38,331 nucleotides of DNA from Clostridia bacterium. GTDB lineage: Bacteria > Bacillota > Clostridia > Christensenellales > CAG-314. The first letter of the stretch is position 1; the number at the start of each line of letters is the position of its first letter. The DNA is taken from positions 1 to 38,331 of the forward strand of contig JAFVYC010000015.1 of NCBI GenBank assembly GCA_017500855.1. Reading direction: 5' to 3'. The notes below the pieces were generated by a model. It did not search any database, had not been told where the DNA came from, and was given only the letters and a program-made list of their open reading frames with translations. The position numbers and the translations under genes are program-made. Positions 1 to 38,331 of this stretch are shown here, piece by piece.

Positions 1-56
1 AAACGGCAATTTTCAGCAAAAAACGACAATGTTTTGCACAATTTTGAAGAAAAGTA

Positions 57-85
57 TTGACATAAACGAAATAAAGTTGTATTAT
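57..85 (+). promoter_or_regulatory. Promoter of prepilin locus 1, reading toward the genes
   Basis: TTGACA at 57-62 and TATTAT at 80-85 are separated by exactly 17 bp, close to the sigma-70/SigA consensus. The promoter lies 38 nt before the palindromic site at 124-141. The same promoter-to-palindrome arrangement recurs at 34,756-34,830 on the opposite strand, including an identical TATTGACATA stretch around the -35 box. I infer that this is the invertible promoter of locus 1 in its ON orientation. Its left boundary would lie outside the window. Confidence 0.75.
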
Positions 86-123
86 ATACTAAAATATAAG
101 ATTAAATTTTTGTATTTTCCACC

Positions 124-141
124 ACATAATGCATATTATGT
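124..141 (+). repeat. Palindromic inverted-repeat site, locus 1 (right boundary)
   Basis: ACATAAT-GCAT-ATTATGT has perfect 7-bp arms around a 4-bp centre. With flanking bases it matches the sites at 34,745-34,762 and 34,935-34,952: TTCCACC on the promoter side is shared with the first of these, and TCAGTTTTT on the gene side with the second. It sits in the 5' leader, about 30 bp before the first start codon. It is either a recombination half-site of an invertible promoter or an operator. Confidence 0.75.
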
Positions 142-173: not shown

Positions 174-653
174 ATGAACATGTACATTTTGTTGGCAATC
201 TATCTTTTGTCATCTGCAATCATTCTTGTGTGCCTAGATCATCTCAAAATGCGCATTGCACGCAACCTTTTCCTTGCGCTGACTGTGGTGCTAATTGCAT
301 TTTTGCCATGTGTCGTTCACGGAAACCAAATCATCTACTTCCGTAGCGACCACCAAATGGACAGCCTTGCCGACAAGTCGCTTGCTTTGATCGAACAAAT
401 CTACCTCACTTCCGGAGACACCCTAATGGCAGTATCTCTGATTTTTTCCGTGCTTGCAGTCATCGTTTCCGTTTCCACGGTAATTTTGATTGTGCACACA
501 GCAAGGGCAATTTGCAAACTTGTTGCCAAAATCAAGGAAAAGCGCCAACACCCCAAGGTTCCACAAAAGCAAACTTTCGAGCGCAAGTTCGCTCAATCAA
601 AAATACAGTACAAACGCATCCTATATTTGCGGTTTTGCAGGTTGAATAGCTAG
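174..653 (+). CDS. Small membrane protein of unknown function, first gene of prepilin locus 1
   Basis: 159 residues with three predicted membrane segments, at about residues 4-20, 30-50 and 84-110, and a strongly basic C-terminal tail (about 115-159) that should lie in the cytoplasm. The start is fixed by a very strong ribosome binding site, AAGGAGGTGA at 155-164, nine bases before ATG. I do not recognise the family. It is the first gene behind the promoter at 57-85 and is followed 156 bp later by a prepilin-like gene on the same strand, so it may be co-transcribed with it. A terminator-like hairpin between the two could reduce read-through. A role in surface display or export of the downstream protein is only a guess from position. 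Confidence 0.7.
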   Translation: MNMYILLAIYLLSSAIILVCLDHLKMRIARNLFLALTVVLIAFLPCVVHGNQIIYFRSDHQMDSLADKSLALIEQIYLTSGDTLMAVSLIFSVLAVIVSVSTVILIVHTARAICKLVAKIKEKRQHPKVPQKQTFERKFAQSKIQYKRILYLRFCRLNS

Positions 654-809: not shown

Positions 810-2171
810 ATGAAACAAACAAAAAAAGGCTTCACACTTGTTGAACTCTTGGTTGTGATTGCAATTTTGGCAATCTTGGCAACCGTTTCCGTAGTGGGCT
901 ACACAAGCTTCATCACAAGAGCAAACCTTTCCAACGACCAAGCAACAATTGCAATGATCAATCGCAACCTTCAAGCAGAATTCGTAACGGGAAAACCCGA
1001 AAGTGCAGGCGAAGCACTCACAGCGCTTGGTGGATTGGGCTTCACCGACGAAAAACTTGTTCCCTATTCCGCAAACTACCACTATGCTTACCACTTGGAA
1101 AGCAACACGTTCTACTTGGTAGACAACAACGACACAATTGTGTACCCCGAAAATGCATCTGTCGACAAGTCCGAACTTTGGGGCTTGTACCACGATGACT
1201 CCAGCTACATTGCAGGTGTAAACCAATACGTTGCGCTCAACCCTGTAACCAGCCACGAAAAATTTGTTTTGGCTTTTGCTCCCGGTTCGTACTACTTCGA
1301 CCTCAACCAAAACTACATTGCTTTCCACCAACCACAAGGCTACCAAATCAACATTTCCAACGGCTACGTTGCTCAGCTTGAACAAATTGCAGGCTCTACG
1401 TCCTACCCAGCAAGCGAAACAGTTGTTTCCATGCAAGTTGTTGATGGAACAGCAGGAAAGAGCTGGTCTGATATTATTGCTTCTGCAGAGGTTGTAAGTG
1501 GCGAAAAGGTAATCAAAGACAAATTGTTTGTTTGCACAAACGAAAACAAAGCTTTCCGTCCAACCGCTGGAACAAAGGAAAGCGTTCGTTTCCAAAACTG
1601 CGTGTTTGCTTGTGGTGCTGTTGATGATGCAATAAGATTCAATTCCTTCACAAATCTTATAATTGACGGTTGCACATTCCTGGATTCCAGTGCTTCAGCA
1701 ATCCACATTGAGTATTTGTACGGCAAGCTTACTATCACTAACAGCAAGTTTATTGGTTGCGCAAGAGGTATCCACATTGGTGCTTGTGCAGAAGGTTCTT
1801 TGATTCAAGGCAACACCTTCAACATCACAACAACCGACAACAACGACGGCTATGCAATTCGTTTGGATGCTACGTTCCATGACATTGATGACGGAAAAGA
1901 AGATTCCTACATCCACACGCCTGCACAGGGCGCAGCAATTGCCATCAAGGACAACAACTTTGAATACTGCTATGCTCCAATTGTTTTGAGAAAAGGCTTT
2001 GCTGAAGGTCAAAAATACCAGCTCAACACAAGTGACCCCGAGTACAAGCATTTGATTGAATGTTCCAACAACACGTTTGGCACAATTCACAGCAACGAAA
2101 AGGTTGTTTACAGCAAGGAGATGTACAACTGGGACGACGTAAAAGCATACTTCGAAGGCATCATCAAGTAA
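810..2171 (+). CDS. Type IV prepilin-like protein with a parallel beta-helix-like C-terminal region
   Basis: 453 residues. The N-terminus is a textbook class III signal: MKQTKKG followed by FTLVELLVVIAILAILA, so prepilin peptidase should cut between G7 and F8 and leave the conserved Glu at mature position 5. The hydrophobic helix runs to about residue 30. A middle region (about 60-220) is shared in outline with the second prepilin. From about residue 230 to 430 short repeats such as NLIIDGCTFLDSSASAIHIE, KLTITNSKFIGCARGIHI and AAIAIKDNNFEYCYAPIVL have the rung pattern of right-handed parallel beta-helix (pectate-lyase-like) domains. Ordinary pilins are much shorter, so this is probably a surface adhesin or polysaccharide-binding pseudopilin. 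The start is set by TAGGAGA at 797-803 and by the leader motif. No pilus assembly genes are in the window. Confidence 0.85.
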   Translation: MKQTKKGFTLVELLVVIAILAILATVSVVGYTSFITRANLSNDQATIAMINRNLQAEFVTGKPESAGEALTALGGLGFTDEKLVPYSANYHYAYHLESNTFYLVDNNDTIVYPENASVDKSELWGLYHDDSSYIAGVNQYVALNPVTSHEKFVLAFAPGSYYFDLNQNYIAFHQPQGYQINISNGYVAQLEQIAGSTSYPASETVVSMQVVDGTAGKSWSDIIASAEVVSGEKVIKDKLFVCTNENKAFRPTAGTKESVRFQNCVFACGAVDDAIRFNSFTNLIIDGCTFLDSSASAIHIEYLYGKLTITNSKFIGCARGIHIGACAEGSLIQGNTFNITTTDNNDGYAIRLDATFHDIDDGKEDSYIHTPAQGAAIAIKDNNFEYCYAPIVLRKGFAEGQKYQLNTSDPEYKHLIECSNNTFGTIHSNEKVVYSKEMYNWDDVKAYFEGIIK

Positions 2172-5245: not shown

Positions 5246-5314
5246 AGTCCGAAGTAGTGTACAAACGTTGTGGTTTGCAAATGGGCAAAACAACAATTTC
5301 TTGCAACGGACCAA

Positions 5315-5388
5315 ACGACACACCGCAGTGCAAATGAGCCCTTTCGTTCACGCCTGTATCCCACGGCGCAACACTTAACGCATGTCGC
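5315..5388 (-). ncRNA. Tetrahydrofolate (THF) riboswitch
   Basis: Reading the minus strand, the stretch contains GCGTTAAGTG (5381-5372), GGGATAC, ACGAAAGG and TGCGGTG, in the order of the conserved THF riboswitch core known from clostridial folT leaders. The closing stem is GCGACA (5388-5383) with TGTCGT (5320-5315), six pairs including one wobble. It sits between a strong promoter and folT. Recognised by eye; a covariance-model match to the THF family would confirm it. Confidence 0.88.
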
Positions 5389-5404
5389 TTTTTTTGCTAC
5401 GTCT

Positions 5405-33523: not shown

Positions 33524-33670
33524 TTCAAAAAAGTTTAATTCGGCAAATGGACGGCAAAGGCCTCGGATGGATGGTATTTCATTTGTGACAAAACAAGGTG
33601 CAACAACTGCGGTCTACGCTAGGCACAATTGGCAATCAACACCAATAATCTACAGGCAGGGGTGCAAAAA

Positions 33671-34147
33671 ATGGACATTTCTTTCAAATTCAACAGCAAA
33701 AAATTCAACTACAGGGTTTGCGCAATCATTGTTGACAACGGCAAAATCTTGGCAATGAAGGACGACCGTTCGCCCTACTTCTACTTGCCCGGTGGCAGGG
33801 TTTCCATGGGCGAAACTGCCGAACAAGCCGTAGTGCGGGAACTGCAGGAGGAACTTGGCATAACCGCCACAATCCAACGCCCGCTGTGGCTCAACCAAGG
33901 CTTTTTCCACGAAGTTGTGGATGGTTTGCACTACCACGAACTGTGATTGTACTTTTTGATGGACGTTTCCCAAACGGATTTGCTTTGCCGTGGCAACAAG
34001 TTCACCAATGCCGAGGGTGGCAGAACGCATCTGTTTCAATGGCTTGACTTCCAAAGCCTCAAGGACCAGTACTTTTTCCCACTGTTTTTGAAGACGGAAA
34101 TTTTCAACTTGCCAACGCAATTCACACTTCGCACGGAAGTGGAGTAG
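33671..34147 (+). pseudogene. NUDIX hydrolase interrupted by an in-frame TGA
   Basis: The frame MDISFKFNSKKFNYRV... contains a perfect Nudix box, GX5EX7REUXEEXGU, in GGRVSMGETAEQAVVRELQEELGI, the Mg-pyrophosphate site. After LHYHEL a TGA (33,944-33,946) stops translation. The same frame continues without a gap as LYFLMDVSQTDLL... to TAG at 34,147, completing a normal length of about 158 residues. Relatives often have a Cys at that spot (HELC.YF), one base from TGA. So this is either a nonsense-mutated gene, a sequence error or recoding. Promoter, AGGGGTG ribosome binding site and terminator are intact, which argues for a recent event. Confidence 0.8.
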
Positions 34148-34352: not shown

Positions 34353-34556
34353 CTACTCTAGCCCATCAGTCAATTCGTCAAAAGTGGTGTTCAGCACCTT
34401 GATCATTTTCAAAATGTTGTGCAACGACGGTTCCACTTTGTCGCATTCCCACTCGCTCACACGTTGTTGAGTGGTGTTCATTTTGTTTGCAAACTGCACT
34501 TGGCTCATTTTGTTCAGTTCTCGCAATGTTTTCAAATTTTTTCCAAACGATTTCAT
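34353..34556 (-). CDS. XRE-family (Cro/CI-type) transcription regulator
   Basis: 67 residues, only a DNA-binding domain. MKSFGKNLKTLRELNKMSQ leads into the helix-turn-helix QVQFANKMNTTQQRVSEWE (about 19-37), then KVEPSLHNILKMIKVLNTTF. ATG at 34,556 follows AGGAT by seven bases; a GTG five codons earlier is a weaker alternative. It stands divergently to prepilin 2, and the promoter inside the inverted-repeat segment currently points toward it, so it could be expressed when the prepilin is off. Palindromes at 34,569-34,582 and 34,617-34,634 lie just upstream and are candidate operators. Short single-domain XRE proteins act as dimeric repressors. Confidence 0.88.
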   Translation of the reverse strand: MKSFGKNLKTLRELNKMSQVQFANKMNTTQQRVSEWECDKVEPSLHNILKMIKVLNTTFDELTDGLE

Positions 34557-34568
34557 TCTTTCATCCTG

Positions 34569-34582
34569 CACGAAATTTCGTG
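34569..34582. promoter_or_regulatory. Palindrome next to the XRE start, candidate operator
   Basis: CACGAAATTTCGTG, a perfect 14-bp palindrome, 13 bases upstream of the XRE ATG. Its position fits autoregulation. Confidence 0.5.
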
Positions 34583-34616
34583 TTCTTGTTTAACACACAC
34601 CAAGTGTAGTGTCGAA

Positions 34617-34634: not shown

Positions 34635-34744
34635 GCTGGGTGCTTTTTTTGTTGTGCAAACACCAATTCTTCCACGCCACAGTTTGCCCTTGCCATCGTG
34701 CAAAATTGTCTTGAAACAAGCCAACCAACACGCATTGTGTAGCA

Positions 34745-34762
34745 ACATAATATGTATTATGT
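34745..34762 (-). repeat. Left inverted repeat of the putative invertible promoter
   Basis: ACATAATATGTATTATGT. On the minus strand it reads TTCCACC followed by ACATAATACATATTATGT, like the locus 1 site. The identical match to the right copy extends over 22 bp, from AACATAAT to ATTATGTGGT on the plus strand. Confidence 0.85.
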
Positions 34763-34934
34763 GGTGGAATTTTTGCCGTAGTTTGATGTTATCTATTCTC
34801 TATATTACTACTTTATACTATATATGTCAATAGTTTTTTCCTTTTTTTTCAAACTTTGTGCATTTTTACTCTTCAATTTTGGAAAAACTAGCTTTTTTTG
34901 CTGTAGTAAACTTTGGGTGTACAGTTTTTTTACC
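34763..34934. promoter_or_regulatory. Putative invertible promoter segment
   Basis: 172 bp between the two inverted repeats, very AT-rich, without an open frame. It holds one near-consensus promoter on the minus strand (34,802-34,830). On inversion that promoter would point toward prepilin 2, giving the same arrangement as locus 1 at 57-141. Confidence 0.75.
34802..34830 (-). promoter_or_regulatory. Promoter inside the segment, now facing XRE
   Basis: Minus strand TTGACA (34,830-34,825), 17 bp, TAATAT (34,807-34,802), 39 nt from the left inverted repeat; the locus 1 promoter is 38 nt from its site. The upstream TGCACAA and A-rich stretch are also shared with locus 1. Confidence 0.82.
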
Positions 34935-34952
34935 ACATAATACATATTATGT
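34935..34952 (+). repeat. Right inverted repeat of the putative invertible promoter
   Basis: ACATAATACATATTATGT preceded by ACC and followed by TATCAGTTTTT; locus 1 has AGTCAGTTTTT outside its copy. It lies 135 bp before the prepilin 2 start. Confidence 0.85.
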
Positions 34953-35040
34953 TATCAGTTTTTATCAAAAAAGCAGTTGTGTGTGGGCAACATTGCCAAA
35001 ATTTGGTGTTGGATGCAACCTAATTTCTACTCTAATCCGT

Positions 35041-35087: not shown

Positions 35088-36014
35088 ATGAAACAAACAA
35101 AAAAAGGCTTCACGCTTGTTGAATTGCTTGTTGTAATTGCAATTTTGGCAGTGCTTGCAACTGTTTCCATCGTTGGCTACCTAAGTTTCATCAACAAGGC
35201 AAACATTTCTGTAGACGAACATGCTGTAACTCAGTTCAATATTGTGTTGGAAGGCGAAGAAATTTTGGGTAATGTTCCGGAAAACGCTTATGACGTCAAA
35301 GCAATTTTCACAACACACGGCTATAACCAAGAACTTGTTCCAATCACTGCGGGATATACTTTCTATTGGTACAAAACAGATAACATTGTTGTTTTGACAG
35401 ATGGTGACGGAAAAATCACATTCCCTCAAAAGTATGAAGGAACAGTAGTCAGCCAAGGCGATGAAAACTATATTGATTTGTCCGGAATTCCATATGCCAT
35501 TGTTGAAGAAAAACATGATTTAGTTGTCACTCCAGATCAAATGCTATCTGGTTTTGGTGGATTGCCACAAATCAATAATAACGTGACATTTGACAACTAT
35601 CTAAAGTTTTCCGCAACCGAAACTCAACTTCAATCAGCTGATTCACAGTATGCAGATTGGCTTTGTGATTTCCGAATTACTGTAAATAAGCCACTTAGTA
35701 CTCCAGGCTGCACCTACTATATTGGCGGACAATACACCTCTTTCAGCGAAAAATGGGTTGTTCTTGACATCACGAATGTTGAAGAGCTTGAAGGTGGATA
35801 TCCAATGTCTTATCTGCTTTTGGGTATGGCGATGGGAATGGAAATGACTTATGAAGATATTTGTACATCTGTTAAAGATTTCCAATGTGGATTCGGTATC
35901 GATGGGTCAGATCCTGGTTTCGAAATTACGGTAGAACTTGTACTATTTGAAAGTGCTGAAGCGTACTACAATGGTGACTTCCTCGTTGTTTCACATCACA
36001 CTTATAACTATTAG
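35088..36014 (+). CDS. Second type IV prepilin-like protein with a distinct C-terminal region
   Basis: 308 residues. The first 18 residues, MKQTKKGFTLVELLVVIA, are identical to prepilin 1: cleavage after G7, Glu at mature position 5. Helix and following stretch (VSIVGYLSFINKANISVDEH) stay similar to about residue 45, and YTFYWYKTDNIVVLTDGDGKI recalls YHYAYHLESNTFYLVDNNDTI of prepilin 1. The rest is unrelated, without beta-helix rungs, and is an unrecognised globular domain. Codon use shifts after about 35,220 toward AAT, TAT and GGA, unlike neighbouring genes, which suggests an imported or fast-changing segment. AAAAGGAGA precedes the ATG. In the present orientation of the upstream segment no good promoter faces this gene. 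Confidence 0.88.
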   Translation: MKQTKKGFTLVELLVVIAILAVLATVSIVGYLSFINKANISVDEHAVTQFNIVLEGEEILGNVPENAYDVKAIFTTHGYNQELVPITAGYTFYWYKTDNIVVLTDGDGKITFPQKYEGTVVSQGDENYIDLSGIPYAIVEEKHDLVVTPDQMLSGFGGLPQINNNVTFDNYLKFSATETQLQSADSQYADWLCDFRITVNKPLSTPGCTYYIGGQYTSFSEKWVVLDITNVEELEGGYPMSYLLLGMAMGMEMTYEDICTSVKDFQCGFGIDGSDPGFEITVELVLFESAEAYYNGDFLVVSHHTYNY

Positions 36015-38118: not shown

Positions 38119-38194
38119 TCCTCTATAGCTCAGTCGGTAGAGCATGCGGCTGTTAACCGCAGGGTCGTTGGTTCGAGTCCAACTGGGGGAGCCA
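38119..38194 (+). tRNA. tRNA-Asn (GTT)
   Basis: Full cloverleaf with encoded CCA: acceptor TCCTCTA with TGGGGGA, D-arm GCTCAGTCGGTAGAGC, anticodon stem GCGGC with loop reading TGTTAAC (anticodon GTT, Asn), T-arm GTTGG-TTCGAGT-CCAAC, discriminator G, CCA at 38,192-38,194. Confidence 0.97.
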
Positions 38195-38238: not shown

Positions 38239-38247
38239 CAACGAAAT

Positions 38248-38331
38248 TTGCCCTTGCGGGCAAGTGAAATAGCTACGCTGTGAAATATTTGCTTCGCAAA
38301 TGTGAAATATTCGCTGACGCGAATGTGGGCA
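38248..38331 (+). repeat. Array of short hairpins separated by GTGAAATA, cut by the window end
   Basis: Four small palindromes with different stems, TTGCCC/GGGCAA, AGC/GCT, ATTTGC/GCAAAT and ATTCGC/GCGAAT, are joined by the constant linker GTGAAAT(A), at about 38,264, 38,280 and 38,302, with a variant GTGGGCA at the end. Stem sequence varies while linker stays fixed. The array continues past the window. Confidence 0.8.

Follow-up and report, generated by a model that had tools for sequence, protein, structure and literature searches.

A multi-locus system of predicted invertible promoters at prepilin genes in a Clostridia genome

Results and Discussion

Within the window, i.e. the whole stretch of 38,331 nucleotides analysed here, the segment 34763-34934 is very probably an invertible promoter that is flipped in trans by the tyrosine recombinase R29, turns a prepilin gene ON or OFF, and represents one of twelve such loci in the genome. 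The multi-locus invertible-promoter system for prepilins is real and larger than first noted, with flipping as a prediction from sequence. R29, which is encoded on another contig, would act in trans and flip the segment between its paired sites. In the present orientation transcription would run toward an XRE-like ORF (34353-34571), and after inversion the prepilin gene (35088-36014) would be ON. With one enzyme acting on twelve loci, each cell would carry its own combination of pilin-like proteins.

The switch upstream of the prepilin gene

The segment is bounded by two arms of 22 nt. The left arm (34744-34765, plus strand) contains an 18-nt core at 34745-34762 with the sequence ACATAAT-ATGT-ATTATGT, and the right arm (34932-34953, minus strand, core at 34935-34952) is its exact reverse complement, with 100% complementarity over 22 nt. 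Between the 18-nt cores lie 172 bp with an A+T content of 72%, in agreement with the preliminary description of an AT-rich 172-bp segment and 22-bp inverted repeats. Among repeats spaced by 40-500 nt this is the longest perfect inverted repeat in the entire window. The 60 first-order Markov resamples of the window that served as chance control reached no more than 15 nt, and the repeat at 34744-34953 is beyond chance.

The enclosed promoter, TTGACA-17-TAATAT, lies on the minus strand (34802-34830, read from 34830 to 34802) and matches the consensus at 10/12 positions, while the best promoter on the opposite strand of the segment reaches 7/12 only. It points away from the prepilin gene, so that the switch is OFF as assembled, and 39 nt separate the end of its -10 box from the left core; near-consensus match, leftward direction and 39-nt spacing all agree with the preliminary description. 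Taken alone the promoter is weak evidence, because three promoter-like sites were found in 1.5 kb and 3.1 were expected from shuffles. The evidence becomes strong because the promoter recurs with the same spacing to the arm at each of the 11 loci of the genome that can be scored. The locus shows the anatomy of an inverton, in which inverted repeats enclose a promoter close to the start of a gene, and the assembly contains the segment 34763-34934 in one orientation only. After inversion, the -10 box would sit 192 nt upstream of the prepilin start at 35088.

In its present orientation the promoter faces a helix-turn-helix ORF of 72 aa (34353-34571, minus strand), which we read as XRE-like by motif. 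This ORF may be transcribed in the OFF state, and the switch might alternate between the putative regulator and the prepilin. A perfect palindrome (34568-34583) was observed at the start of the helix-turn-helix ORF. We also noted a NUDIX-like frame at 33650-34147 (plus strand), which in our reading is apparently broken by a stop codon into the ORFs 33629-33946 and 33947-34147.

Twelve loci in the genome

The window lies on contig C4 of a genome (G000) of 1.52 Mb in 41 contigs, which is 92% complete. A search of this genome for the site core with up to two mismatches returned 22 forward matches vs 2 for the reversed control pattern, and 14 of the sites were exact. Nine complete inverted pairs are located on contigs C4 (34745/34935), C11, C16 (two, a and b), C31 (three, a to c), C35 and C39. 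Three further loci are cut by contig ends (C1, the C2/C4 start and C40), with contig C40 ending inside the recombination site; a lone site match at C29:19444 was left out of the locus count. All 11 scorable loci possess an exact TTGACA box within a promoter of 10-11/12 matches whose -10 box ends 37-39 nt from one arm core. The best match on the opposite strand was 7-9/12 at these loci, but 10/12 at C35. Central bases of the sites are identical within the pair in 9/9 pairs of G000.

One central sequence (ATAC/GTAT) is common to six complete pairs (C11, C16a, C31a, C31b, C35, C39) and to the C1 site, so that loci could recombine with one another and cause large rearrangements. The 11 promoters also have spacer letters in common beyond both boxes, most of them with AAAGTTG at the spacer end before the -10 box, which is perhaps the site of a regulator.

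The window itself holds part of a second switch. Its bases 1-141 match the beginning of contig C2 without a difference, and bases 1-123 (plus strand) form the promoter-bearing end of another predicted invertible segment. The promoter of this switch, TTGACA-17-TATTAT (57-85, plus strand), points to the adjacent operon and is thus ON as assembled, and the site-core search placed the recombination site, ACATAAT-GCAT-ATTATGT, at 124-141 (plus strand). The analysis extends the preliminary description in that the locus at 34744-34953 is one of twelve, the likely enzyme is encoded elsewhere and bases 1-141 belong to another switch.

Genes behind the switches

The predicted target of the switch at 34744-34953 is a prepilin-like gene of 308 aa (35088-36014, plus strand). 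A class III signal peptide (GFTLVE) with matches to PF07963 and TIGR02532 above cut-off places it in the prepilin family and confirms the prepilin that had been proposed at 35,088. The structure model (mean pLDDT 80.7, alignment of 9 sequences) predicts a long N-terminal helix of the pilin type at residues 10-59 and a beta-rich head; in a fold search against solved structures, nothing matched this model at an E value of 0.001 or lower. The operon behind the second switch begins with a small hydrophobic protein of 159 aa (174-653, plus strand) that has no Pfam or NCBIfam match and also contains a second prepilin of 453 aa (810-2171, plus strand), whose C-terminal part appears to be a beta helix according to a profile match to right-handed beta helix.

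A prepilin ORF is found behind one arm at 12/12 loci, with 14 prepilin genes in total; C31a has two consecutive prepilins, and at C31c the segment is flanked on either side by one of two divergent prepilins. The prepilins of the twelve loci have near identical N-termini and are widely divergent in the remainder. At nine of the twelve loci, the one at 34744-34953 not being among them, the prepilin is preceded by a small hydrophobic (membrane) protein of about 159 aa, which has 9 relatives among 5.8 billion proteins, itself included. At C31:109297-110794 the switch lies between the two divergent prepilins, where flipping would swap one pilin for the other.

Overall, a search at E 1e-12 returned 21 prepilin matches from G000 and none from 24 further genomes of the genus. 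Seven prepilins lie outside the twelve loci. No site pair was present at the six that were examined (the seventh is at a contig edge), and at four of these six an ordinary promoter (10-12/12) faces the gene. The genome further encodes pilus machinery, namely a prepilin peptidase (PF01478, C27:65705) and assembly ATPases (PF00437, e.g. at C27:62711), and the switched proteins are presumably displayed on the cell surface.

Orientation of the segments

Both orientations occur among the loci of the assembly. The promoter points toward the prepilin at C1, the C4 start, C11, C16a, C16b, C31a, C39 and for the left gene of C31c, and away from it at C4 (34763-34934), C31b and C35. Signs of both orientations within a single locus were found twice. 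Contigs C2 and C4 share their first 141 bp, consisting of promoter end and site, and diverge exactly at the last base of the site, past which the operon follows on C4 and a different gene lies ahead on C2. Contig C16 extends beyond its second arm and ends in 67 bp that perfectly repeat, in reverse, the flank of its own operon, which means that this flank is connected to the segment at either end. Reads holding both junctions are, in our assessment, the sole way in which an assembler yields the C2/C4 and C16 signatures. With default settings, the assembler MEGAHIT works with words of up to 141.

The shared start of C2 and C4 also fits two loci with a common promoter end. The first gene of C2 encodes pyruvate phosphate dikinase, which is present in 19/19 genomes searched. 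When synteny of the C2 and C4 flanks was compared in stretches from 8 relatives, a gene of C4 was near pyruvate phosphate dikinase only in genome G004, at a distance of about 7 kb. The expected junctions of the other end of the C2/C4-start segment were not seen in the assembly. The preliminary description had held that a single orientation without any recombinase in the genome would speak against inversion; so far, recombinases are present, and the assembly shows signs of both orientations at two sister loci.

In the related genome G026 a 227-bp segment with perfect sites occurs in two copies (C9:64231-64493 and C18:2370-2632 of that genome), and no close R29 relative is found there. These perfect pairs were considered as one segment in two orientations, a reading that was rejected because both copies represent one locus and share their orientation; the pairs are not counted as evidence for inversion.

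Recombinases of the genome

A search of G000 for serine recombinases gave no PF00239 match, while the control matched in 10/14 genomes, and a serine-invertase system of the Hin or Mpi type was rejected on this ground. The genome encodes two tyrosine recombinases, R29 and a XerS-like enzyme. Searching for repeat copies and recombinases had been suggested at the outset, and yielded the twelve loci and these two enzymes, one of which belongs to a family tied to this type of site.

R29 is a Xer-like protein of 282 aa (C29:105761-106606) with a PF00589 match. Its residues R138, K160/K162, H224, R227, H250 and Y259 are invariant across 4 sequences and are, in our reading, the putative catalytic residues. 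Among the NCBI equivalogs the best score was 120.3 bits (XerA), below the cut-off of 220, and R29 was therefore rejected as XerC, XerD, XerS or XerA proper. The XerS-like enzyme is intact with 359 aa (C30:47588-48664), and its gene was found in 29/31 genomes searched with 47-100% identity.

Close inverted pairs (up to one mismatch) were detected in only 3/31 genomes, i.e. in G000 itself, G012 and G026, and close relatives of R29 in only 4/30 relatives (G012, G027, G029, G018). Just 3' of the R29 relative, G012, G027 and G029 carry an inverted pair of ACATAA-type sites, some of which have 1-2 mismatches, and in G018 the R29 relative is broken and has one site directly next to it. Around R29 itself, no sites were found within 98000-112000 of contig C29, and R29 is unlinked to any proposed target. 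This lack of linkage, together with G026, where perfect site pairs occur without a close R29 relative, weakens the link between R29 and the switches.

Site linkage of the R29 family across Clostridia

Four members of the R29 family were compared to the contigs of 84,980 species, which gave at least 80 loci, from Clostridia and related Bacillota by record titles. An inverted pair was located within 2 kb of the R29-family gene in 57/80 listed loci, and in 56/64 of those listed loci with at least 600 bp downstream. Among the remaining 8 of these 64, six had an inverted repeat of 13-27 nt with variant arms at the same place and two were without. By comparison, 0/20 XerS-like loci had an inverted site pair. 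As a further control, 19 of 20 shuffled-arm patterns gave 0 matches across the listed 80 loci; one pattern matched 41/80 because it differs by one base per arm from the true arm, within the two-mismatch limit.

The centres of the sites are particularly informative. The centre played no part in the choice of 58 family pairs from the listed loci; in 57 of them the two sites agreed in their central 4 and 6 bp, and random partners agreed in a mean of 2 and a maximum of 8. There were 37 different centres among the 58 pairs, and 0/58 were palindromic. Matched variable centres are a requirement of strand exchange by a tyrosine recombinase and none for operators. In addition, 14/29 contig ends 3' of R29-family genes in the listed loci were no more than 262 nt away from the gene, in the region of the pair (a limit chosen after viewing the list), and 0/15 on the 5' side were, as if assemblies broke at the switch in many species.

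In 39 genomes with family members, the number of exact sites per genome was 0-9, with 2 as the commonest value, mostly one linked pair, and 0 control matches in each, compared to 14 exact sites in G000; these counts cover 40 of the 80 listed loci, mostly picked for having a pair, and describe such genomes only. No prepilin motif was found in the flanks fetched for the listed 80 loci, which extended over at most 4 kb to either side. Ten downstream proteins were identified in the family, covering signal peptidase, leucine-rich, dockerin, SPFH, helicase, camelysin-type and trypsin-FHA proteins and a TetR regulator. In the 57 listed family segments the stronger promoter pointed toward the recombinase in 24 and toward the downstream gene in 8, with 2 ties, and 23/57 had no promoter of 10/12 or better.

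Alternative explanations

An invertible promoter before the prepilin, as originally proposed, is the best reading of the locus, given 11 scorable loci with the same layout and a site-linked recombinase family. The near-palindromic sites could instead be operators of a dimeric repressor that never recombine, e.g. a looping pair around the promoter. This would suit the near-palindromic form of each site, the bracketing of a promoter by the pair and the XRE-like gene adjoining the 34744-34953 locus. Operators would have no reason, however, to carry inverted copies of a centre that is not conserved elsewhere (57/58), to adjoin a tyrosine recombinase gene (56/64 listed loci), to coincide with contig ends or to enclose a promoter that faces either way at sister loci, and we consider this explanation highly improbable. 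It is also very unlikely that the repeats are the vestige of a switch at 34744-34953 that once worked and is now locked: the single orientation of 34763-34934 in the assembly would agree with this, but the arms, the centre, the promoter and the reading frame of the prepilin have all stayed intact, and sister loci show signs of both orientations.

Inversion could also be real and be carried out by the housekeeping XerS-like recombinase (C30:47588-48664) or by one that the assembly lacks. The gene of the XerS-like enzyme is undamaged, action at a distance is common among tyrosine recombinases, and the site presumably resembles the Xer recombination site dif; moreover, another recombinase could be missing from G000, since the assembly is 92% complete. 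The distribution of the XerS-like gene (29/31 genomes) is nevertheless at odds with that of close inverted pairs (3/31), and a pair was found at 0/20 XerS-like loci vs 56/64 of the listed R29-family loci, which leaves this explanation unlikely. For R29 we somewhat favor a scenario in which a single orphan Xer-like invertase, of a family that is normally encoded beside its own switch, has been cut loose in this species and acts in trans on twelve dispersed promoters, including one whose inversion toggles between two divergent prepilins. Thousands of pilin combinations could thereby arise per clonal population.

Comparison to known systems

Promoter inversion, multi-locus recombinases and a recombinase-linked inverton group of Clostridia are already in print. 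To our knowledge, the target (prepilins), the scale and the pairing of site and enzyme in this lineage are new. The preliminary description knew of no promoter inversion described for this pilin family, and searches of the open PMC literature likewise listed no account of prepilin genes under such invertible promoters.

The nearest parallel in logic is the mpl (P35) family of Mycoplasma penetrans, a large family of surface lipoproteins in which most genes are thought to own an independently flipped invertible promoter and tyrosine-type recombinases were suggested (PMC2268961). The two systems share a large surface-protein family with a promoter per gene; they differ in that mpl encodes mycoplasma lipoproteins, while our targets are prepilins of an uncultured Clostridia bacterium, with a recombinase family usually found beside its own switch. 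RecV of Clostridioides difficile, a tyrosine recombinase, was reported to act on up to six of seven switches, whose repeats are for the most part unrelated and whose genes are unrelated as well (PMC5903667). As in our genome, one tyrosine recombinase serves several dispersed segments of a Clostridia genome, whereas here all sites follow one motif and all twelve loci carry one gene family; the two are set apart by description and not by sequence. The same source presents Mpi of Bacteroides fragilis as a master invertase of at least thirteen dispersed regions. One enzyme for many dispersed regions is what we propose as well, but Mpi is a serine recombinase acting on capsule and other loci (PMC5903667), and no serine recombinase was found in G000. 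Phase variation of type IV pilin governed by DNA inversion, a further point of likeness, is cited there for Moraxella bovis (PMC5903667). Inverton group 139 comprises 33 invertons, 32 of them from Clostridia and nearly all beside a tyrosine-type recombinase (invertase group 35), and orientation shifts of the invertons were measured (PMC11892184). Likened by description only, this group and its invertase are possibly the R29 family, and the words pilin and pili are absent from the main text of that study (PMC11892184).

If the proposed mechanism is true, a gut commensal whose genus is known here from assemblies alone would diversify its pilin-like surface proteins by the logic of Bacteroides capsules, and one enzyme with one site motif would suffice for the whole pilin-like repertoire. 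The motif ACATAAY-N4-RTTATGT beside a tyrosine recombinase could serve as a sequence-only detector of recombinase-linked switches across Clostridia, and the matched yet freely varying centre as a rule for which sites can recombine together.

Elsewhere in the window we noted a Gut-1 RNA adjoining a tRNA gene (38239-38313 and 38119-38191, both on the plus strand) and a THF riboswitch (5302-5398, minus strand).
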